Virus record (IMG/VR): IMGVR_UViG_3300046787_000230
Span: 1-31,923 of that record
Origin: a virus
Direction: 5' to 3' (one strand)
DNA length: 31,923 bases
Shown here in pieces: positions 2 through 28,405 of the stretch. Under the pieces are notes generated by a model. The model made no database searches, was not told the DNA's origin, and worked only from the letters and a program-made list of their open reading frames with translations. A program made the position numbers and the translations under genes. The number at the start of each line of letters is the position of its first letter. The first letter of the stretch is position 1.

Positions 2-3000
2 CCAATTGGACCAGCTGGCATGATTGCCTTGGGCAAAACTGGCATGGCTGCTGGAACAACCGCCATTGAGCTTGGCTCCGAAGTGCGCGATATGGTTGGC
101 AAGGTATTGGCCGAACGCAAGCTTGCGCCAACGGCCGCCAACATTAAATCAATATTGGACGAAGACGGATTCCGCGAGGAGGCCGCAAAGCAGGGCGCCA
201 TCAAAGGCTTGACGGTTGCTGCCGTTGACAACATTTTTCTTGGTATCGGCGGCAAGGTTGCCACGGCCCCAGCGAAGACTGCTTTGGGTAGGGCTGCAGC
301 AGGCGGGTCGGCTGTCGTAGTTGACGCCGCTGGTGAATCATTGGGCGAAGGTCTTAGCCAACAGTTTGCTCGCGGCACGGTTGATTATGGCGAGGCTCTT
401 CGAGAGGGAACGTCAAGCATTGGTCAGTCTGTAGCCCAGACTGCTGCGGGTTCTGCGATTGAGAGGGCGCAGGGGATTAGCACGGCGTTTGAGCCGTCAA
501 TTCAGCCTGCCGCACCCGAGGTATCAACCGCCGAGCAAATGGCCCGCGATCGCGGTTTCCTGACGCCTCAGCGCCCAGTTACCCAGCTCACCAACTTCAC
601 CCCAGCCGACAGCCCCACAAAGGCCGCAGGTTTGGTTGACGTTGTTGTGCCAGTTCCAGTTGCAACCCCTGCCGTCACGCCATTGGCTGAGGTTCAGATC
701 AATCCCGAGACTGAGCAGCAGTTCGGCCTCGACAAGCTACGACTGGGGACAACCAATGTCGGCGTACCAAGCACTGTTGGAACCACGGATGTACCTAGCG
801 GTGCAGGCGCAAGCGTTGAGCTTAGCGGAGGCGTGGGCACTGCAGGACCTAGCATCACTGGCCCAGAAGGGGGAGTGGCTGCCGCTACCACCGCAGCTCA
901 ATTCGGCGGTGGACAGGTTGCTGCTGTTGGAGCGGCCAACGGCCAACAGCCTACCGCTCTAAAGCAGGAGTGGTACGGCCGCCGTGGCGACGGCTACCTC
1001 ACAAAGCCAGACGCCGAGCAAGCTTTGCCCGGTCGTCAACGCATGTTCCCCGACCTTCAATGGACGGTCGAACCATTACCCACTGGCAAGTTCCGTCTTG
1101 CTGGCTATCAAACCGCAACCCCACAGGAGACAACCCTTGGCACTCAAACCACTCAAGCCATCCAAGCAGCGCAAGAAGGACAGCAAGCACCTACCCTTGG
1201 AACCGCAGTCGCCCCAACAACAGGCGCCGTTGCGCCCGATGTGCAAGGTGCTCAACCTACCGAGCTGAAGCTGGCGCCTGCCGCATCGATGCGCGTCATC
1301 AGCTCAGTTCGCAAAGAGCTGATCAAGGACAACGTCGAGATTTCCGCAGTGCCACAGGCTGAGATGAACGAGTCTCACAAGGTGGCCAGTGCCGTGGCCA
1401 AGCTGTTGGGCAAGACGCTCACCGTCATGCGCTACGAGTCAGGCAATCAGTCGGCCATGCCAAATGGTTTGATCGATCGCCTTGGTGGTGACAACATTTT
1501 TGTTGCCGACGACACTGAAGATTCGCCGCTGTTTGTGGTGATGCACGAGGCTCACCACGGTCTGCCGCAAGAGACTCGCGCCAAGCTGAATGCTGCGCTC
1601 AACTCTTTGTTCAAAGAAGAGATGCGTGGTGAGTTTGCTCGCGAGTTCAACTACACAGAAGACAAGCTCGATGAAGAGATCCCAGCCTTCATGGTGCAGG
1701 CGATCTCAAAGCGCGCTGACTTTTGGGAGCAGTTGCGCACAAAGATGGGCAACAAAGATTTTGCCGAGGTGGCGAAGCAGATCTTGGCCAAGCTCAATGA
1801 CATCCTCACTGGTGCACGCAAAGAGTACGGCAATGACTTCGTCACCAAGTACATCAAAGACGTGGAGAAGGCGCGCGACTTGTTGACCACAGCTTACGCT
1901 GAGGCAATCAACGAGAAGGCCACCACCACTGAGACGAAGAAGGTTGCGCCAACAGTTGGTCCAATCGCAAAAGAAGAGGCCGTCATCGATGGCGTCATGT
2001 ACTCTGCGCGCTCGCGTGACTTGGTGAAGCTGCCAACGATTGAGATCAAGGACTTGGTAGGCAAGCGAGTCATGGGTATTAAGGCTGACTTGACCGATGC
2101 TGGCGTGAGCTACACGGGCATCGACGGCAGCCAACTCGAGTTCCCAATCGAGATGATGGGTGGTCCAAACTTTGTGGCTCTACCTGAGAACATCAAGAGC
2201 AATGTGGTGTGGGCCGTGCGCGGTGGTGCAACGCTGACTAAGATCATGAACGTGGTCAACAACAGCGACTACATCATTGTGCACGCCATGAATGGCAACA
2301 GCCATTTGACAAACGCAACCATCTCTCAGGCTTACATTCAAACCGTTGAGGCGTACCTCAAAGACAAGCGCATCAGCGTTGAGAACTTGCGCGCGCTGGA
2401 CAAGATCGTTCGCTCGCCGGCAAACAAAAACTCACTGCCAGATTTCGTTGGCTTCGAGTCACCCAACATCATCGAGTACATCGATGGCTTGTCGTTTGAT
2501 CAGCGCGGCGCGTTGGCCAAGATCTTGGAAAAGAAAGAGGCGCAGATCCACGGTCTGCCAAACCTCGATCGCTTTCGTCGCGAGACCATCGATCAAGAGT
2601 ACGCAGGCTATCGTCAAGGCGACGCCATGTTGGTCATCGAGGTCGACAAAGAAAACCCCACCGTCAAGCTTGGCGAAGAGGGCACGAAGATGCACCCCTC
2701 CTACCCGCTTGGCCTTCGCGGCAAGGTGGTCGGCAAGCTCGCCAAGGGTATCAACTATGAGTTGATCTACCGCGACTACTTTGAAAACAAAGTCCCTACG
2801 CTTGGCAACAAAGAGGCTGGCGCATGGTACGCATTCGATCGCGTGCTCCCTGTGCAAGAGATCACGCCAGAGATCGCCGCATCCGTGTCAGAGGGTGGCT
2901 ACAAGGCGATCAAATCTGCGCGACAGGCCGAGGCTTCACTCGCCTTGGCTAACGACAATTGGCTGGTGTCTGGCAAGACCAAGGCCGAGGGCGGTGTGTC

Positions 3001-6000
3001 GGTGCAAGAGTTCGTCGACGCACTCGCCGCGAACGAAGGTGCTGCCGCTCTCACCATGTACACGCCTGACGAAGTCAAGGCAGGCATTAAGGACAAGTCC
3101 TTCAGCGTCTACCAACTTGGCAAGCAAGGTGGCGACAAGGGCATCCAAGTTTTCTTTGGCCTCAAGCGCGGCGCGCCTTGGTACAAGGACATGATCGACG
3201 GCGTCTCGGACAACGAGGTCGAGGTCGTGTCGGTGACCAACAACGAAGTTGGCGCGCAAGGTGTTGGGATTCCTGCTATCATCACAAAAGCTATACAAGA
3301 AGGTGCGACCATCTTGGATGCGTTCGCCGTCAAGAGCAAGCGTTTCCCTGATGGATTCTTGCCAGAGATGTATGGCCAATTCGGCTTCGAGAAGATCGGT
3401 TCAATTCCGTTCGACGCAAGCTACTACGACGCCAACCAAATGGCTGACCTGAAAAAGTTTTGGGCAGACGGTGGGTGGAAAGAATCCGATGGCTACCCAG
3501 ATGTGGTGGTCATGAAGTGGAAAGGTAATGATGATGAACGAGCAACGTCAATTGAAAGATATGTACGCGAGGGTGAGACAAGTGTTTCCGTTGGATCTGC
3601 TAGATTCAATGGCGCCCCAACAGCGGACGCTCACGGACAACGCAATCAATCGCGTGCTAAACAAGGACGGGGTCGAGGCGCTGACAGTGGACAGGTTGGA
3701 GGGGATCAAGGAGTTGGTAACGCAGCACCTGTGGTCCGACGCGCTTACGACAGCATCCAAGAACTCGCAAGCCTCAGCGATGGCGACATCCGAAATCTCG
3801 GACTCAACCCCGATGAAGTCGCCAAGCTCAAGCAATCCCTCGGCGGCATCCAATTCAGCAAGCGTGCAGGATCTCCAGAACCTATCGGAAGATCCAGCAT
3901 TGGGCGCGATCAGGGCGATGCAGTCAAGGTCGAAGGCGCCATCCACTACGGACGAAGCGCAGGGCTGAGCGTACTGTCTGGAACCAGCTTTGGTTCTGGC
4001 ATCAAGGGCGCGGAGCAAGCGCGCTTGTCTGGCGTTGGCGTTGACCCACGCATCAAGCGCCGCGTCTACTTCTACCTCCCAATGGAGGGCGGCATCCCTC
4101 AACCAGAGATTGGCTTGGGCACGAATGTCTACACCGCAAACCTAAGCAATCTGTATGACCCATCTCTTGGGACGCTGAAGCTTTCTACTGAACCTAACGC
4201 GTTCGAGTCTGGCGTTCTTGACGCTGGCTTCCGTGGCTACATCAATCGTTCCCAAGGCACGGCCGTGGTGCTCAACTCTGATGTGCCAGTCAAGGCTGTG
4301 GGCAAGTCGTCAGAGCAGACCATGGTGCAGCGCAAGCCGCAGATGGTTGCTCAAAAAATAAGCACACGTGTCGAGGGTCAAGAGCGAGTTCGCAAGCCAA
4401 CCAATGAAGAGATGATTGGCATCGTCAAGGCTCGCCCAGAGTTAGCCAAGGTGGCGCCTTCCTTCCGCTTGGAGTTTGGCTCTGCTCGAGTCAACTTCGA
4501 TGAGGCGGCTGCGGCTGACGAGGCGTTGGCCAAGGCAGGGTCGACGTTCCGATTCAATGAGGACACTGATGGCCAAGTCGAGGTGGACTTGCAGTTCAGT
4601 CGTCGCACGAAGCCAGCCCCAAAGAAGACGGTCATTGCGTACAAGCTGTTCCGCGTGGAGAAGGATCGACCAAGCGAGTTGTTCCCCTTGTTCGTCCCTG
4701 TGTGGGGCGACGATGGTCCACAGAAGTTCAGCGCCCGCGACCCACGTCGCCATGGCGAGGGCTTGCCAATTGGTGAGTGGTATGACGCAGAGGTGGGTGA
4801 GAACGCGCCGTCCACAAAGACTGGTAAGCCGCAGGTGAAGTCGAAGTTGGGCGGGCTGGCGTTCCGTCCGGGCTGGCACGCGGGCGATCTCCCCATCGCC
4901 ACCCACATCGGCTCCAAGTCAGACCCCTCATTGAACGCACCAGACCTCCGCTCATCCAATCAAGTGTGGGCTGAAGTCGAGATGCCCAACGACGTTGATT
5001 GGCAAACCGAAGCCGAGAAGCGTGGCATCAACGCCAAGGGTAAGTTCATTGCGAAAGAGGCGCACATCACTGACCAACTCCCAGAGGATGGCTTCTACCG
5101 CTACAAGACCAACTCCAACATGACTGGCAGTTGGCTGATTGGCGGCTCGATGAAAGTCAATCGCATCCTGTCTGACGAAGAGGTCAAGGCAATCAACGAC
5201 GCTGCTGGCACAGCAGACTTGCCACGCGGTGAGAAGTTCGACGCCAAGAAGTATGGCTTCGAGGGTGTCATGAAAAGCAATCGCTCTATCGGCGACGCCC
5301 TTCAAGAGCGCATCAATGCGGACATTGAGCAAGTCATTGGCGAGTACGAGAACCTCAAAGGCACAGACGACGGTCGCATCTTGGATACCGACATGGTGCG
5401 AGAGCTGTCGCCTGAGTACCGTGCTGATCGCTCACGTGCGGCCGAAGTTCACGAGGCTTCTAGCTTCTTGACGCAAGCAATGTTTGAAAGTCGAATTGCA
5501 AACAACGACGCTGGCATCGTTGCTTTTATGGCTGGCGGTGGCGGTGCTGGAAAGTCTACAGCCAACGAGTTGGTAGGCAACATGCTTAACAAAGCTCACA
5601 CCGTTTTAGATGGCACGCTGTCCAGCTACGACAAGGCCAAGCGTAATGTGGAGTCGGCGCTTAAAGCTGGCAACAAAGTGCGCATTGTCTATGTCTATCG
5701 AGAGCCTATTGAAGCTCTGCGTAACGGAGTGCTTACCCGCGCAGAGCGCATGGGTCGCACCGTTACCATTGACGCATTGGTCAAGGGTCACGCTGGCTCA
5801 AGCTCTGTTGTAAGAAAACTACAAGAAGAGTTCGGTGACAACCCAATGTTTAAGTTGATCGTGGTCGACAACTCACGTGGACAAGGTAATGCAAAGATTG
5901 CAAACCTGATAGACATCACACCTGTGATACAATCAGGACTGAAAGAGAGGTTACAAAATGCAACAGAAAGTGAATTTCAAGAAGGACGAATTGGGGAGGC

Positions 6001-6310
6001 CGTATATCGAGCCACAACCGCCTCGTATCCTGACGCCCGAGGAAGTGATCAAGCGGGACTTGGTGGCGAAGCAGTTCGACGAGGAGTTCAAGGCGGCGTT
6101 CAAAGACGGGTTGGATCTGAGCAACTACAACTCTCGTTGACCAAGTTGTTCACGGACCTTCGCGGTGCTCGCGGCCTGAAGCTTGCGCGCGTGCAGGAGC
6201 AGGTGGAAAATAACCCGCTCAGCGCGGCAATCAAAAACGTCGAAGAGAACTTCTACGACATCGTTGGCCAACTCGAAGAAGACGGCCTCATCAAAATCAA
6301 TTGCAAGTAA
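2..6310 (+). CDS. Giant phage polyvalent protein (partial at 5' edge): zincin, LPD, GNAT-like, ART-like and zeta-toxin-like domains
   Basis: The frame is open to the left edge, so the true start is probably upstream; residue 1 here is the ATG at 20. Visible segments are: an Ala/Gly-rich membrane-seeking region (1-150); Pro/Ala/Gly linkers (160-420); a zinc-metallopeptidase motif HEAHH (509-513) with a plausible third ligand at E552/E553; an LPD-type region (about 670-950); a GNAT-like fold (about 975-1170, ending in a 'PDVVVMKW' strand); a possible ADP-ribosyltransferase-like domain (about 1305-1430); a conserved domain rich in 'GWHAGDLPIATHIG'-type sequence (about 1530-1755); and a zeta-toxin-like kinase with P-loop AGGGGAGKST (1838-1847). 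Phage and plasmid polyvalent proteins are thought to be packaged and injected to act early against host defences. The last 120 residues run through another gene's frame, so the stop may have moved downstream. The ART-like and LPD labels are tentative; the zincin and zeta P-loop are firmer. Confidence 0.85.
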   Translation, partial: PIGPAGMIALGKTGMAAGTTAIELGSEVRDMVGKVLAERKLAPTAANIKSILDEDGFREEAAKQGAIKGLTVAAVDNIFLGIGGKVATAPAKTALGRAAAGGSAVVVDAAGESLGEGLSQQFARGTVDYGEALREGTSSIGQSVAQTAAGSAIERAQGISTAFEPSIQPAAPEVSTAEQMARDRGFLTPQRPVTQLTNFTPADSPTKAAGLVDVVVPVPVATPAVTPLAEVQINPETEQQFGLDKLRLGTTNVGVPSTVGTTDVPSGAGASVELSGGVGTAGPSITGPEGGVAAATTAAQFGGGQVAAVGAANGQQPTALKQEWYGRRGDGYLTKPDAEQALPGRQRMFPDLQWTVEPLPTGKFRLAGYQTATPQETTLGTQTTQAIQAAQEGQQAPTLGTAVAPTTGAVAPDVQGAQPTELKLAPAASMRVISSVRKELIKDNVEISAVPQAEMNESHKVASAVAKLLGKTLTVMRYESGNQSAMPNGLIDRLGGDNIFVADDTEDSPLFVVMHEAHHGLPQETRAKLNAALNSLFKEEMRGEFAREFNYTEDKLDEEIPAFMVQAISKRADFWEQLRTKMGNKDFAEVAKQILAKLNDILTGARKEYGNDFVTKYIKDVEKARDLLTTAYAEAINEKATTTETKKVAPTVGPIAKEEAVIDGVMYSARSRDLVKLPTIEIKDLVGKRVMGIKADLTDAGVSYTGIDGSQLEFPIEMMGGPNFVALPENIKSNVVWAVRGGATLTKIMNVVNNSDYIIVHAMNGNSHLTNATISQAYIQTVEAYLKDKRISVENLRALDKIVRSPANKNSLPDFVGFESPNIIEYIDGLSFDQRGALAKILEKKEAQIHGLPNLDRFRRETIDQEYAGYRQGDAMLVIEVDKENPTVKLGEEGTKMHPSYPLGLRGKVVGKLAKGINYELIYRDYFENKVPTLGNKEAGAWYAFDRVLPVQEITPEIAASVSEGGYKAIKSARQAEASLALANDNWLVSGKTKAEGGVSVQEFVDALAANEGAAALTMYTPDEVKAGIKDKSFSVYQLGKQGGDKGIQVFFGLKRGAPWYKDMIDGVSDNEVEVVSVTNNEVGAQGVGIPAIITKAIQEGATILDAFAVKSKRFPDGFLPEMYGQFGFEKIGSIPFDASYYDANQMADLKKFWADGGWKESDGYPDVVVMKWKGNDDERATSIERYVREGETSVSVGSARFNGAPTADAHGQRNQSRAKQGRGRGADSGQVGGDQGVGNAAPVVRRAYDSIQELASLSDGDIRNLGLNPDEVAKLKQSLGGIQFSKRAGSPEPIGRSSIGRDQGDAVKVEGAIHYGRSAGLSVLSGTSFGSGIKGAEQARLSGVGVDPRIKRRVYFYLPMEGGIPQPEIGLGTNVYTANLSNLYDPSLGTLKLSTEPNAFESGVLDAGFRGYINRSQGTAVVLNSDVPVKAVGKSSEQTMVQRKPQMVAQKISTRVEGQERVRKPTNEEMIGIVKARPELAKVAPSFRLEFGSARVNFDEAAAADEALAKAGSTFRFNEDTDGQVEVDLQFSRRTKPAPKKTVIAYKLFRVEKDRPSELFPLFVPVWGDDGPQKFSARDPRRHGEGLPIGEWYDAEVGENAPSTKTGKPQVKSKLGGLAFRPGWHAGDLPIATHIGSKSDPSLNAPDLRSSNQVWAEVEMPNDVDWQTEAEKRGINAKGKFIAKEAHITDQLPEDGFYRYKTNSNMTGSWLIGGSMKVNRILSDEEVKAINDAAGTADLPRGEKFDAKKYGFEGVMKSNRSIGDALQERINADIEQVIGEYENLKGTDDGRILDTDMVRELSPEYRADRSRAAEVHEASSFLTQAMFESRIANNDAGIVAFMAGGGGAGKSTANELVGNMLNKAHTVLDGTLSSYDKAKRNVESALKAGNKVRIVYVYREPIEALRNGVLTRAERMGRTVTIDALVKGHAGSSSVVRKLQEEFGDNPMFKLIVVDNSRGQGNAKIANLIDITPVIQSGLKERLQNATESEFQEGRIGEAVYRATTASYPDARGSDQAGLGGEAVRRGVQGGVQRRVGSEQLQLSLTKLFTDLRGARGLKLARVQEQVENNPLSAAIKNVEENFYDIVGQLEEDGLIKINCK
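3534..3968 (+). CDS. Overprinted ORF nested in the polyvalent gene, frame +1 relative to it
   Basis: The ORF could start at any of three successive ATGs (3528, 3531, 3534). AAAGG lies at a good distance from the third, giving 144 codons. The first 70 codons read as an ordinary helical protein (MNEQRQLKDMYARV...). By hand count about three quarters of their third positions are G or C, while in the long frame the same stretch has mostly A/T third positions and a low-complexity Gly/Arg/Gln protein. After about position 3740 the picture reverses: this frame becomes Ser/Ala/Pro-rich and the long frame looks natural again. It could be a real nested gene, or the trace of two compensating frameshifts in the polyvalent gene. 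Function unknown. Confidence 0.45.
   Translation: MNEQRQLKDMYARVRQVFPLDLLDSMAPQQRTLTDNAINRVLNKDGVEALTVDRLEGIKELVTQHLWSDALTTASKNSQASAMATSEISDSTPMKSPSSSNPSAASNSASVQDLQNLSEDPALGAIRAMQSRSKAPSTTDEAQG
5916..5933 (+). promoter_or_regulatory. Operator plus extended -10 promoter inside the polyvalent gene
   Basis: Perfect palindrome TCACA-CC-TGTGA (5916-5927) followed directly by TACAAT (5928-5933), so TGA-TACAAT forms an extended -10. The predicted RNA start is near 5940, just before the ribosome site and ATG of the nested gene at 5958. Five other copies of this module occur in the window. Confidence 0.65.
5958..6140 (+). CDS. Small overprinted gene (60 aa) within the polyvalent frame
   Basis: This gene encodes a 60-residue charged protein of unknown function (MQQKVNFKKDELGRPYI..., ending SNYNSR). 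AGAGAGG lies 7 bases before the ATG, and an operator-type promoter sits at 5916-5933. About three quarters of its third codon positions are G or C, as in neighbouring genes. In the polyvalent frame the same DNA gives a Gly/Arg-rich sequence, although the first part (GRIGEAVYRA) still looks like the tail seen after zeta-type domains. So the gene probably began as a normal overlap with the end of the polyvalent gene, which later lost its stop codon. The TGA overlaps a TTG that may start the next small protein. Confidence 0.65.
   Translation: MQQKVNFKKDELGRPYIEPQPPRILTPEEVIKRDLVAKQFDEEFKAAFKDGLDLSNYNSR
6137..6310 (+). CDS. Possible separate 57-aa protein with TTG start, same frame and stop as the polyvalent protein
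   Basis: The last 57 codons of the long frame (LTKLFTDLRGARGLKLARV..., ending GLIKINCK) read as a compact, self-contained protein unlike the Gly/Arg-rich stretch before them. A TTG at 6137 overlaps the TGA of the 60-aa gene as TTGA, an arrangement typical of coupled translation. No clear ribosome site of its own is seen. The segment may be made separately, as the C-terminus of the polyvalent protein, or both. Function unknown. Confidence 0.4.
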   Translation: MTKLFTDLRGARGLKLARVQEQVENNPLSAAIKNVEENFYDIVGQLEEDGLIKINCK

Positions 6311-6319
6311 GGAATCAAA

Positions 6320-6808
6320 ATGGCAACCCGTAACTTTCTCAAGCCAGAGACTCAAACTATTTTGGACAAGGCTGTGCATGCGGAGCTGTTCGCATCCAAC
6401 CTATACAAGCACCTATCGAATCACATGCAGCGCATGGGTTTCTTCGGTGCGCAAAAGTTCTTTGCTGGCGAGAGTGCTGATGAGCTGACTCACTACCAAC
6501 AGTTGGCTGACTACATGAACGATCGTGGCTCTGTTGCAAACATACCAATGATCGAAGCTATGCGCGACAAACCATCTGGCTTGATGGACGCTATCGAAGT
6601 TGCGTTCGACACTGAGGTCGAGCTGATGGAGAACTACTCCACTTGGTACGACGAGTGCAAGTGCGCGATCACAAAACAATTCCTCCTCCAATTCCTCGAG
6701 ACCCAACGCAAGAGCGTTGGTGAGTACGGCGATTTGCTCGCACGCCTCGAGTTGATTGGCGACGACAAGTGTGGCCTCATCATCATTGACCAAGAGTTGG
6801 GTGCCTGA
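6320..6808 (+). CDS. Phage-encoded ferritin-like protein
   Basis: A 162-residue four-helix ferritin, the usual length for bacterial non-haem ferritins (165 in E. coli FtnA). It aligns by eye with FtnA along its whole length: 'FLKPETQTILDKAVHAELFASNLY', then ADELTHYQQL and the closing 'GLIIIDQEL'. Ferroxidase ligands that appear kept are E22, E55, H58 and E99, with Q129 matching FtnA Q127. The later glutamates after Q127 in FtnA are not clearly kept, so the third iron site may be altered. The ATG follows the polyvalent stop by nine bases with AAGGAAT as ribosome site, and the stop overlaps the next gene. Family members oxidise and store iron as 24-mers. Here it lies between virion-protein genes, so a structural or packaged role is possible. 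Confidence 0.85.
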   Translation: MATRNFLKPETQTILDKAVHAELFASNLYKHLSNHMQRMGFFGAQKFFAGESADELTHYQQLADYMNDRGSVANIPMIEAMRDKPSGLMDAIEVAFDTEVELMENYSTWYDECKCAITKQFLLQFLETQRKSVGEYGDLLARLELIGDDKCGLIIIDQELGA

Positions 6809-9540
6809 TGAGCTGCACCTACAAGTTCAACACCAAGGACGGAGAGCAGACCATCGTCGGCATGGCCGAGATGAAGGCTTTCCTCGTGTTGAATGGTGTC
6901 GACTCCATCATTGGCAAGGTCGACATTCAGATGAGCAATCGCACGCTTGACTTGTCTGAAGATGCCAAGGCTCAGCAAGAATACTTGCAGCAGCGCGCAG
7001 AGGCTGCAGGCTACAAGACCATCGACGAGTTTGTGGACAACGACTACAACGGCTTCGTCGAGGCTGCTGCTGATTGGCGCTACGAACACCCAGCCGACAT
7101 GATGTTGGCCAAGCGCAAGGGTGGCGCGGCCGCACCTACGCCGCCCGCAAGCAAGGCCACCAATGGGTGGCTGTTGGCGCGTGACGAGTTGGGCAACTTT
7201 CGTTTCGGCGCTGGCGCTAAGGCGTATCGCGCTGTGTCCGATGTGGCCAACGTGGTGTTGGAGAAAATCAAACTCAAGCCCATCAGTCAAGACCTATCTC
7301 GCGCACTGCGCAAGATGAAGGTGGAGATCGAGCGCGCGCAAAACCTCACCGTCGAAGTGGCTGGCAAGATGAAAGATCTGTCGGACCAAGAGCGTCAAAT
7401 GATCAGCGACGTGATCGAGGGCGAACTCAAGCGTGGCTCCAAGCCACCTAAGCACATCCTCGAGTTGGCTGCATCCATGCAGTCGATCATGTCGGAGCAG
7501 TCAGCTGAGCTTGTACGCTTGGGCATGCTGAGTGAAGACGCCGCTGGTCGATGGGATGGCAAGTACCTACCACGCTTCTATGAGTCAAAGCTCAAAGACG
7601 AAACCAAGGCGTGGATGAAAGCCGTCAAAGGATTGTTTGGCCGCAAGAAAACTATGCAGGGTATCAGCGGCTCAAGCCTCAAGGCTCGCGGCATCTTCAG
7701 AAACGTGCCCGTCGCTGACAAGCAGGATTGGATTGACCAAGGGTGGGAAGTGCGCGACGATGATTTCGATGCGCAGAACGACACTGAGATCACCATGTGG
7801 CGTGACTACACACGCGATGAGCGTGACGACATGGGCGAGATCCGTGACGCCATGTTCCGCTTCGTGATGGGCTACAACAAGAGCCAACGCGACATCGCGC
7901 TCGGTCGACTGTACGAGAACCTAGCCAATACCGTGGCTGTCAAGCGCGAGCAAGAGGGCTACGTGCAGGTGCCCAACAGTACGATCGAAGGAACCAAGGC
8001 CAAGACCTATGGCAAGTTGGCCAACAAGTGGGTGCCCGCTGAAGTGATGGACCACCTCGTGGCATTTGACTCATCCATGCAGAGCGATCTGATGAAGATC
8101 TACCTCAAGGGTTTGAGCATGTGGAAAGAGGGCAAGACAGTTCTCAATCCAGTGTCACACGCCAACAACGTGTTGTCCAACCTGACCATGGCTCACTTCG
8201 CTGGCGTCTCATATTGGGATGCTGGCAAGTACATCGGTACGATCCGTGACTTGGTCAAGGGTCACCCCATGATCGAGGAGGCCAAAGGCGTTGGCTTGTT
8301 TGGCGGCACGTTCAATCGCGCCGACTTGCTCAACGATATGCCAGACCAACTTAAGGTGTTGGCCTCGGCCAGTGAGTCCAAGGCTGCCCAAGGTGTTGAT
8401 GCTGTGTGGAATGCTCTGTCGTTTTGGCTGCGCAAACCTGCAGGAAAAGCCTACGAGGCCGAGGATTTGTTCTTTCGATACCTGATATACCGTGAGGCTC
8501 GTCAGCGCGGCCTAGGCCCTGATGATGCGGTCGACTATGCGCAGAAGTACATCTTCACCTACGACGACTTGCCAAGCGGTGCGCGTAAGCTGCGCGACTA
8601 TGCGCTGCCGTTCTTCAGCTACACCTACAAGGTGGTCCCAACCCTAGCTCAAACTGCGCTCGAGCAGCCATGGCGCTATGCTGCCCCAGCCGCTGCGCTG
8701 TACACCGTCAACGCGATGATGTACGCCATGGCCGCAAGCCTTGGTGGTGGCGAGGATGAGGATTGGTGGGAGGTTGTGCGACGTTACGTAACGGACCCTG
8801 AGTTCCGTGAGCGTGCGCGCGAGTTGGAGAAGGACCAACGCAAGAGCTTGCCACCATGGATGAAGGGTGCGAGCGCGACGTTGGGCACGCCCAAGGCGAT
8901 ACGCTTGGGCATGGATGATGTGACCAATCTGCCGTTGTTCTTGGATGTGAGCCGAGTGTTCCCCGGCGGCGACCTGCTCGACGCCCACTCCAACGCTGGC
9001 GGCATCCCTCTCCTTCAGCCCCTCACCCCAAGCAGCCCAATCCTGAACATGGTCGGCGCCATGCTGTGGAACAAAGACCCCTTCTACGGCAAAGAGATCG
9101 TTGAAAAGAACGACACCAGCGCCGAGGCCGCAGCTAAGCGTGGCAAGTGGATGTGGCAACAGTTCACCCCTGCGGTGGCCATCGGCAACTACCATTGGGA
9201 TCGTGCCCTCAACGTGATCGCAAACCAAGTTGGCGAACCAGTGCTTGGCTACACAGGCGTGGGCAAGGACGGCCTACCAGTGCAGGCTAAGTACGCTATC
9301 GCACAGACGGTGGGCATCAAGATCAGGCCAGTCGACCTCGACTTGTCTGAGAAGTTTGAGGCAGCCGATCGTCGCAAGCTGATCCAAGGTTTGGAGGCTG
9401 AGGTCAAGCGAGTTAATAGGTTAGAGAACAAGGGTGCAATCACACCTGAGAACGCAGCCAAGGAACGAGACTTGCAAAAGCTGAAGATCCAACGATTGAA
9501 AGAGGGCCTCGACATCGAGGGTAATCCGAAGGACGAATAA
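6808..9540 (+). CDS. Large phage virion-associated polyvalent protein (LPD38-like)
   Basis: A 910-residue protein whose ATG overlaps the ferritin stop (TGATG). The first 130 residues are acidic and include an Ala/Pro linker; the middle is a long helical region (about 140-330). From about residue 430 it matches the phage LPD38-type region as I recall it: 'EGKTVLNPVSHANNVLSN', then 'FFRYLIYREARQRG' near 555. A hydrophobic part follows (about 600-650, 'ALPFFSYTYKVVPTLAQ' and an Ala/Met-rich helix) that could insert in a membrane. The last 60 residues are a charged helix. Such proteins lie near the end of morphogenesis clusters, and many are thought to be internal virion proteins ejected with the DNA. 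No enzyme motif was recognised. Confidence 0.75.
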   Translation: MSCTYKFNTKDGEQTIVGMAEMKAFLVLNGVDSIIGKVDIQMSNRTLDLSEDAKAQQEYLQQRAEAAGYKTIDEFVDNDYNGFVEAAADWRYEHPADMMLAKRKGGAAAPTPPASKATNGWLLARDELGNFRFGAGAKAYRAVSDVANVVLEKIKLKPISQDLSRALRKMKVEIERAQNLTVEVAGKMKDLSDQERQMISDVIEGELKRGSKPPKHILELAASMQSIMSEQSAELVRLGMLSEDAAGRWDGKYLPRFYESKLKDETKAWMKAVKGLFGRKKTMQGISGSSLKARGIFRNVPVADKQDWIDQGWEVRDDDFDAQNDTEITMWRDYTRDERDDMGEIRDAMFRFVMGYNKSQRDIALGRLYENLANTVAVKREQEGYVQVPNSTIEGTKAKTYGKLANKWVPAEVMDHLVAFDSSMQSDLMKIYLKGLSMWKEGKTVLNPVSHANNVLSNLTMAHFAGVSYWDAGKYIGTIRDLVKGHPMIEEAKGVGLFGGTFNRADLLNDMPDQLKVLASASESKAAQGVDAVWNALSFWLRKPAGKAYEAEDLFFRYLIYREARQRGLGPDDAVDYAQKYIFTYDDLPSGARKLRDYALPFFSYTYKVVPTLAQTALEQPWRYAAPAAALYTVNAMMYAMAASLGGGEDEDWWEVVRRYVTDPEFRERARELEKDQRKSLPPWMKGASATLGTPKAIRLGMDDVTNLPLFLDVSRVFPGGDLLDAHSNAGGIPLLQPLTPSSPILNMVGAMLWNKDPFYGKEIVEKNDTSAEAAAKRGKWMWQQFTPAVAIGNYHWDRALNVIANQVGEPVLGYTGVGKDGLPVQAKYAIAQTVGIKIRPVDLDLSEKFEAADRRKLIQGLEAEVKRVNRLENKGAITPENAAKERDLQKLKIQRLKEGLDIEGNPKDE

Positions 9541-9544
9541 GAAA

Positions 9545-9568
9545 GGGAGCCGAGGCTCCCTTTTTTTT
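9545..9568 (+). terminator. Intrinsic terminator between convergent blocks
   Basis: Stem GGGAGC / GCTCCC with a CGAG loop (9545-9560) followed by eight T (9561-9568). It ends the rightward morphogenesis transcript. The T-tract includes the stop codon of the leftward gene at 9567. Read leftward, the hairpin is followed by TTTCTTA, so it may also stop the leftward transcript weakly. Confidence 0.9.
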
Positions 9569-17033: not shown

Positions 17034-17051
17034 ATTGTATCACAGGTGTGA
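17034..17051 (-). promoter_or_regulatory. Leftward operator plus extended -10 promoter
   Basis: On the minus strand TCACA-CC-TGTGA (17051-17040) is followed at once by TACAAT (17039-17034). This copy is identical to the 5916 site. It faces the recombination operon that starts at 16988. No good -35 is present, so it depends on the extended -10. Confidence 0.7.
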
Positions 17052-18052: not shown

Positions 18053-18070
18053 ATTGTATCACAGTTGTGA
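18053..18070 (-). promoter_or_regulatory. Leftward operator plus extended -10 promoter
   Basis: Minus strand: TCACA-AC-TGTGA (18070-18059) followed directly by TACAAT (18058-18053). It overlaps the last codons of the upstream small gene. GAATTATTTTTGCA lies 9 bases further upstream and is shared with the 18810 site. Confidence 0.7.
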
Positions 18071-18803: not shown

Positions 18804-18821
18804 AGTGTATCACAGTTGTGA
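18804..18821 (-). promoter_or_regulatory. Leftward operator plus extended -10 promoter
   Basis: Minus strand: TCACA-AC-TGTGA (18821-18810) followed directly by TACACT (18809-18804). The palindrome equals that at 18059. GAATTATTTTTGCA lies just upstream, as at 18079. Confidence 0.7.
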
Positions 18822-22873: not shown

Positions 22874-22891
22874 AGTGTATCACACTTGTGA
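22874..22891 (-). promoter_or_regulatory. Leftward operator plus extended -10 promoter
   Basis: Minus strand: TCACA-AG-TGTGA (22891-22880) followed directly by TACACT (22879-22874). It faces the 75-aa gene and lies just behind the stop of the gene at 22894. Confidence 0.7.
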
Positions 22892-28387: not shown

Positions 28388-28405
28388 TCACATCTGTTAT
28401 ACAAT
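28388..28405 (+). promoter_or_regulatory. Rightward operator plus -10 promoter (one mismatch)
   Basis: TCACA-TC-TGTTA (28388-28399, one mismatch to the palindrome) followed directly by TACAAT (28400-28405). It faces the 66-aa gene at 28444. The hairpin GCAACGC-aatttc-GCGTTGC (28409-28428) follows close to the predicted start. Confidence 0.65.

Follow-up and report, generated by a model that had tools for sequence, protein, structure and literature searches.

A phage ferritin clade linked to the conserved domains T57 and N45 between the halves of a giant polyvalent protein

A 162-aa protein encoded at positions 6320–6808 (+ strand, ATG start) of a 31.9-kb IMG/VR virus record, the whole of which was analysed and is referred to below as the window, is by its predicted fold and ligands a genuine FtnA/H-type ferritin. 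The gene lies between two conserved domains, T57 and N45, with which it forms a block that was probably inserted into a giant polyvalent virion protein. The ferritin has a Ser-type ferroxidase centre and no site C, and would oxidise and sequester Fe(II) in the infected cell as a 24-subunit cage, a reading to which we assign a probability of about 0.6.

Identity and distribution of the phage ferritin

The protein matched the Pfam family PF00210 (Ferritin) with 68.2 bits (E = 9.5e-19; gathering score 24.5), and a sequence search of solved structures gave FtnA-type bacterial ferritins as top matches (E ∼1e-11). An AlphaFold2 model (mean pLDDT 92.8, pTM 0.86) consisted of five helices, at residues 9–39, 42–68, 88–112, 116–146 and 150–161, the last being a short C-terminal helix E. 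When this model was compared with solved structures using Foldseek, FtnA ferritins were the best matches (E = 6.5e-10, TM 0.92), and its comparison with FtnA by VIA gave Z values of 23.4–23.6 and an rmsd of 1.2 Å over 157 residues. The sequence-only reading had taken the gene for a full-length ferritin and had proposed structure prediction against FtnA as a check; the match to PF00210, the model and the intact ferroxidase sites bear it out.

Alignment with cellular ferritins placed E22, Y29, E55, H58, E99 and Q129 among the invariant columns. These correspond to E17, Y24, E50, H53, E94 and Q127 of FtnA, residues with established ligand roles. The ligands of the intra-subunit ferroxidase sites A and B are present and the tyrosine is conserved; these residues and S132 were unchanged in all 19 distinct ferritins of the phage clade, with Ser at the position of FtnA E130 in each. 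The homologues are therefore not non-ferritin bundles devoid of ferroxidase ligands, a possibility raised at the outset. The suspicion that the third iron site was altered also proved right: E49/E126/E129/E130 of FtnA site C correspond to D54/T128/K131/S132 in the window ferritin, and across the phage clade these columns hold D/T/E, T/I/L/V/F, K/L/T/R and S, the bacterial site C glutamates not being kept in the 19 distinct proteins. With Ser in place of E130 throughout the phage homologues and with site C missing, the protein may turn iron over differently from FtnA. The phage protein is neither FtnA proper nor Dps: the first because of site C and because its score of 46.8 bits against the NCBIfam FtnA equivalog NF007638 lies below the 178-bit cut-off, the second being ruled out by the predicted helix E and the conserved ligands of the intra-subunit site.

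When the window was compared with L004–L006, dN/dS was 0.06–0.07 for the ferritin and ∼0.3 for the giant ORF; judged by these ratios, the ferritin is under strong purifying selection. A chance or misassembled ORF was ruled out by the presence of the same-site gene in five contigs of other datasets and by the dN/dS of 0.07. Recruitment of the ferritin fold as a structural virion protein, with iron handling lost, would suit a gene that lies in the virion-protein region and encodes no site C, but the invariance of the conserved Tyr, the Ser and all site A and B ligands makes this a very improbable explanation.

Scanning IMG/VR yielded five relatives of the window (85–99% identity) with a ferritin at the same site. 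Further ferritin loci included a group at ∼60% identity, more members reached via the neighbouring domains, and two MAG contigs at 54–55%. The search for the same-site gene in related phages, also proposed initially, thus gave ∼30 contigs in all, several of which are near-duplicates, leaving 19 distinct ferritins. In a tree, the phage ferritins were monophyletic (support 100/100) and sat on a long stem. A search of 50,697 phage records gave no matches to the ferritin at E ≤ 1e-5 other than two unannotated faecal contigs, in agreement with the claim that such a gene is rare in phages, although the phrog_16594 lineage also has a ferritin. Both faecal 'phage' records look like bacterial DNA, and one of them holds two ferritins. 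A host ftnA beside a prophage is the likely explanation for the IMG/VR loci L040–L042 and L050–L060; for the window's clade it is not. When 299 genomes from the family to which the Burkholderiales MAG belongs were searched for the prophage, the MAG itself was the sole match.

The phrog_16594 proteins represent a second, unrelated lineage of phage ferritins (L044:7959-8501, L049:7956-8498 and L054:7971-8474). In L044 and L049 the gene is directly 3′ of the portal gene and is followed by a DNA-polymerase exonuclease gene; in L054, a contig of 104.7 kb, it is near the terminase.

The divided giant and the T57–ferritin–N45 block

The ferritin gene starts 9 nt past the stop of a 2096-aa ORF (20–6310, +), and its TGA has one base in common with the ATG, at 6808, of a 910-aa ORF (6808–9540, +), as the tight overlap read initially had it. 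The first ORF encodes the upstream half of a DarB-like/polyvalent virion protein, with a match to the HEAHH zincin metallopeptidase motif at residues 509–513 (1544–1558, +) and a zeta-toxin-like domain at residues 1857–1943 (5588–5848, +; Pfam PF06414 Zeta_toxin, E = 1.5e-11). A single HExxH zincin motif, as a motif match only, was present in each of seven giants compared. The 910-aa ORF encodes the downstream half, with a type-A body from about residue 114, and an intrinsic terminator (9539–9566, +; a 12-bp stem then a T run) closes the rightward operon. In G004 and other longer relatives, genes for the terminase, portal, major head protein, T7-type tail fibres and endolysin lie upstream; the locus therefore lies where the virion module of a podovirus-like phage ends, the ferritin-bearing group being one of uncultured, short-tailed phages. 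The leftward genes of the window include those for a helicase, a Cas4-type exonuclease, an SSB-like protein and Sak4.

Polyvalent proteins, for which injection is predicted, are recognised by their zincin-like metallopeptidase and LPD domains (PMC5512222). LPD38 was detected in the type-B downstream protein of L006 (E = 2.8e-22); a Pfam search did not detect it in the window's own type-A downstream protein. Virions of phage JC1 purified on CsCl contain the homologous DarB-like protein gp69, identified by 51 unique peptides (PMC9144972). Homology thus makes the virion association of the ferritin's neighbours well founded, most directly for the type-B body, and by analogy the flanking polyvalent proteins are probably packaged and injected with the DNA. 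The AlphaFold model of the type-A body had a pLDDT of 45, and its hhalign comparison with the type-B body gave E = 5.7e-4 with a probability of only 30%.

Ferritin-free relatives have a single ORF of 3,100–3,500 aa without T57 or N45. In L009, upstream polyvalent sequence continues in frame into the downstream body, and neither a ferritin nor T57 or N45 was found. In G316 and G315, which are ferritin-free and related by the helicase, the type-A body forms part of one long open frame, of 3,517 and 3,399 aa respectively, and the examined part of the 3,517-aa frame also has upstream-giant homologues. MW202426 has a single 3,145-aa ORF that ends in the type-B body, which is also C-terminal in BcepIL02 gp70 and three giant PHROG families. 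The block therefore splits what is elsewhere one protein. Its three parts (T57 tail, ferritin and N45 head) were probably inserted together, once, into the giant polyvalent virion protein; insertion would be favoured over loss because unsplit giants occur far more widely. The sequence-only reading had put the ferritin between two large virion proteins. Their homologues are indeed virion proteins, but in the ferritin-free relatives the two neighbours are halves of one giant.

T57, the C-terminal domain (57 aa) of the upstream giant (6137–6310, +), and N45, the N-terminal domain (∼45 aa) of the downstream protein (6808–6942, +), are conserved across the ferritin phages, the two MAG contigs included. 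Profile scans of IMG/VR, which reach fairly close relatives of both domains only, found T57 in 23 loci, every one with an adjoining ferritin of 161–164 aa that starts 9–11 nt past the T57 stop, and N45 in 25 loci, with a ferritin before it in all 24 that were readable upstream. There was no credible match of the two profiles to PDB sequences, or of single T57 and N45 sequences to PHROGs. That T57 might be a separate small gene (e.g. a Bfd-like partner) was ruled out as a general rule by its non-conserved start codon, the codon at this position being GTC in L062, GAA in L039 and CTG in L006.

The DNA on either side of the block has been swapped wholesale while the block stays constant. Identity between L062 and L063 was 0.97–1.00 through N45 and then 0.57; between L062 and L069 it was 0.80–0.87 within the block (0.87 in the ferritin) and 0.57 in both flanks; and between the window and L006 it was 0.94 in T57 and N45, and 0.61 and 0.58 outside, the background of such DNA alignments being ∼0.55. 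Two alternative downstream bodies occur behind the same N45, A in the window and B in L006. Even close relatives (L063 vs L062, L006 vs the window) swap the whole downstream body right after N45, an exchange that resembles the tip exchange of polymorphic toxins. Synonymous divergence was 0.1–0.3 in T57 (6137–6310) and 0.12–0.18 at the start of N45 (6808–6897), compared with ∼0.5–0.6 in the ferritin. The low values suggest either recombination anchors or a constraint at the nucleic-acid level.

The ferritin could, accordingly, be a passenger, with T57 and N45 acting merely as anchors for the exchange of polyvalent domains. Synonymous divergence is lowest in just these two segments and higher in the ferritin, as if anchors had been homogenised by recombination, and the bodies are swapped exactly outside them. 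A passenger, however, would not retain every ferroxidase residue at a dN/dS of 0.07; moreover, anchors need no ferritin, yet the T57 and N45 scans found none without it. This explanation is thus quite improbable.

Alternatively, T57 and N45 might bind the ferritin, which would then be a docking hub through which the split, ejected halves are assembled, packaged or kept together. Both domains adjoin the ferritin in every locus found and are absent where the giant is unsplit, both remain constant while the attached bodies are exchanged, and the unsplit homologue JC1 gp69 is a component of purified virions. A single ancestral insertion followed by descent would, however, give the same linkage, and a 12-nm cage would hardly fit the portal channel. 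Because of this size, an assembled cage is unlikely to be ejected via the portal and would be left in the head or work on freshly synthesised protein; if in the particle, the ferritin would therefore stay in the head or travel as subunits. We regard docking as a tentative possibility. Its fuller form, in which the ferritin would be the hub of a virion-associated effector assembly, and exchangeable polyvalent halves bearing T57 and N45 as docking domains would be early effectors delivered or assembled with an iron-oxidising cage, appears rather unlikely.

Expression and proposed role

Inside the giant ORF and directed towards the ferritin lies the operator TCACANNTGTGATACANT (5916–5933, +), a palindrome that overlaps an extended –10 element (TCACACCTGTGATACAAT); the promoter-like match spans 5906–5933. 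The window contains six copies of TCACANNTGTGATACANT, against 0.07 expected, and none of 100 shuffles reached six. Four copies face leftward genes (17034–17051, 18053–18070, 18804–18821 and 22874–22891, –), and one, with one mismatch, faces rightward (28388–28405, +). The copy at 5916–5933 is kept in all five subgroup relatives (L002–L006), including L006, in which the neighbouring sequence has diverged. The operator-controlled internal promoter recognised in the sequence-only reading therefore stands as a sequence feature. The operator-promoter was not found in the L039 and L062 subgroups, and independent expression of the ferritin is thus not general. The six copies, mostly located before leftward replication genes, have the appearance of a phage-wide regulon.

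Since the operator copies are shared, the ferritin of the window's subgroup can probably be made from a promoter co-regulated with the replication genes. It would be transcribed with the giant and also from the internal operator-promoter, and, as the latter is shared with the leftward replication and recombination genes, could be expressed independently of the late structural operon.

In another frame, the last part of the giant ORF also contains a 60-aa ORF (5958–6140, +). Its length of 183 nt is the same in six subgroup phages, its start and stop are also kept in the six, and both frames remain open. Upstream of it lie the operator-promoter and a purine-rich, SD-like stretch. A possible role for its product is that of antitoxin to the zeta domain.

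In the role that we favour, the ferritin subunits would assemble into a 24-mer, this cage would oxidise and sequester Fe(II) in the infected cell, and the benefit would be less Fenton damage to replicating phage DNA and/or iron held for the phage. Such a role points to control of iron by the phage in the course of infection. A stand-alone metabolic gene should at times be lost or move on its own, and would not be expected to show so perfect a linkage to T57 and N45. This exclusive linkage is the part that iron oxidation and storage leave unexplained, and it supports the docking of T57 and N45 to the ferritin.

Comparison with known ferritins, polyvalent proteins and phage iron genes

The phage genes known for the control of iron and oxidative stress are for the most part Dps or catalase genes that occur here and there. 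In the ∼30 contigs of this study, a ferritin is inseparable from a giant protein that is probably ejected, and T57 and N45 were found only beside it, which ties a ferritin to probably injected phage proteins in a manner not previously described. If T57 or N45 bind the ferritin, this would be a new mode of cargo attachment for a ferritin cage and would for the first time connect phage ejection proteins with iron; even without such binding, a clade of active-site-intact phage ferritins is defined that is directly testable. A literature search found no account of an FtnA-type phage ferritin. That ferritin-superfamily genes occur in phages is already known; as far as the literature and databases searched show, what is new is the ferritin clade, the fixed block of three parts and the location of this block within a polyvalent giant that it splits.

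The flanking proteins resemble the polyvalent/DarB-like giants (PMC5512222; JC1 gp69, BcepIL02 gp70) in their zincin motif, in LPD38 (type-B body) and in their place at the end of the virion module, and the type-B phages have the same C-terminal body as JC1 gp69 and BcepIL02 gp70. Such giants, however, are normally one ORF, rather than two halves with a ferritin between them, and ferritin is not mentioned in PMC5512222.

Gut phages carry genes for Dps and Mn-catalase, proposed to counter oxidative stress (PMC8008677). These and the phrog_16594 ferritins are likewise ferritin-superfamily genes in phage genomes, but belong to other subfamilies or another lineage, and have neither the T57/N45 block nor a split giant. 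The BFVD models include a putative non-heme ferritin of an uncultured marine phage. Weak matches to the ferritin model were also seen there for A0A6J7WIS1, A0A6J7WPK9 and A0A6J5N5R9, proteins of 432–763 aa from uncultured Caudovirales annotated as prohead protease or Ferritin/DPS domain; these hint that head-morphogenesis proteins may carry further ferritin-like domains as fusions.

With FtnA (PF00210; E. coli 1EUM, V. cholerae 3QZ3), the phage ferritin shares its length, the five-helix subunit (1.2 Å rmsd), the E17/E50/H53/E94/Q127 ligands and Tyr24. It differs in having only ∼27% identity, in the change of E130 to Ser, in the loss of site C and in a CD loop three residues shorter, and the phage ferritins form a separate clade on a long stem, below the NCBIfam FtnA equivalog cut-off. 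Human mitochondrial ferritin and the cyanobacterial SynFtn have Ser at the HuHF Ala144 position together with a conserved Tyr, an arrangement that influences mechanism (PMC12092714). The phage protein has the same Ser and Tyr, although its identity to these ferritins is 20–23%, and by analogy it may share their mixed-valent chemistry.
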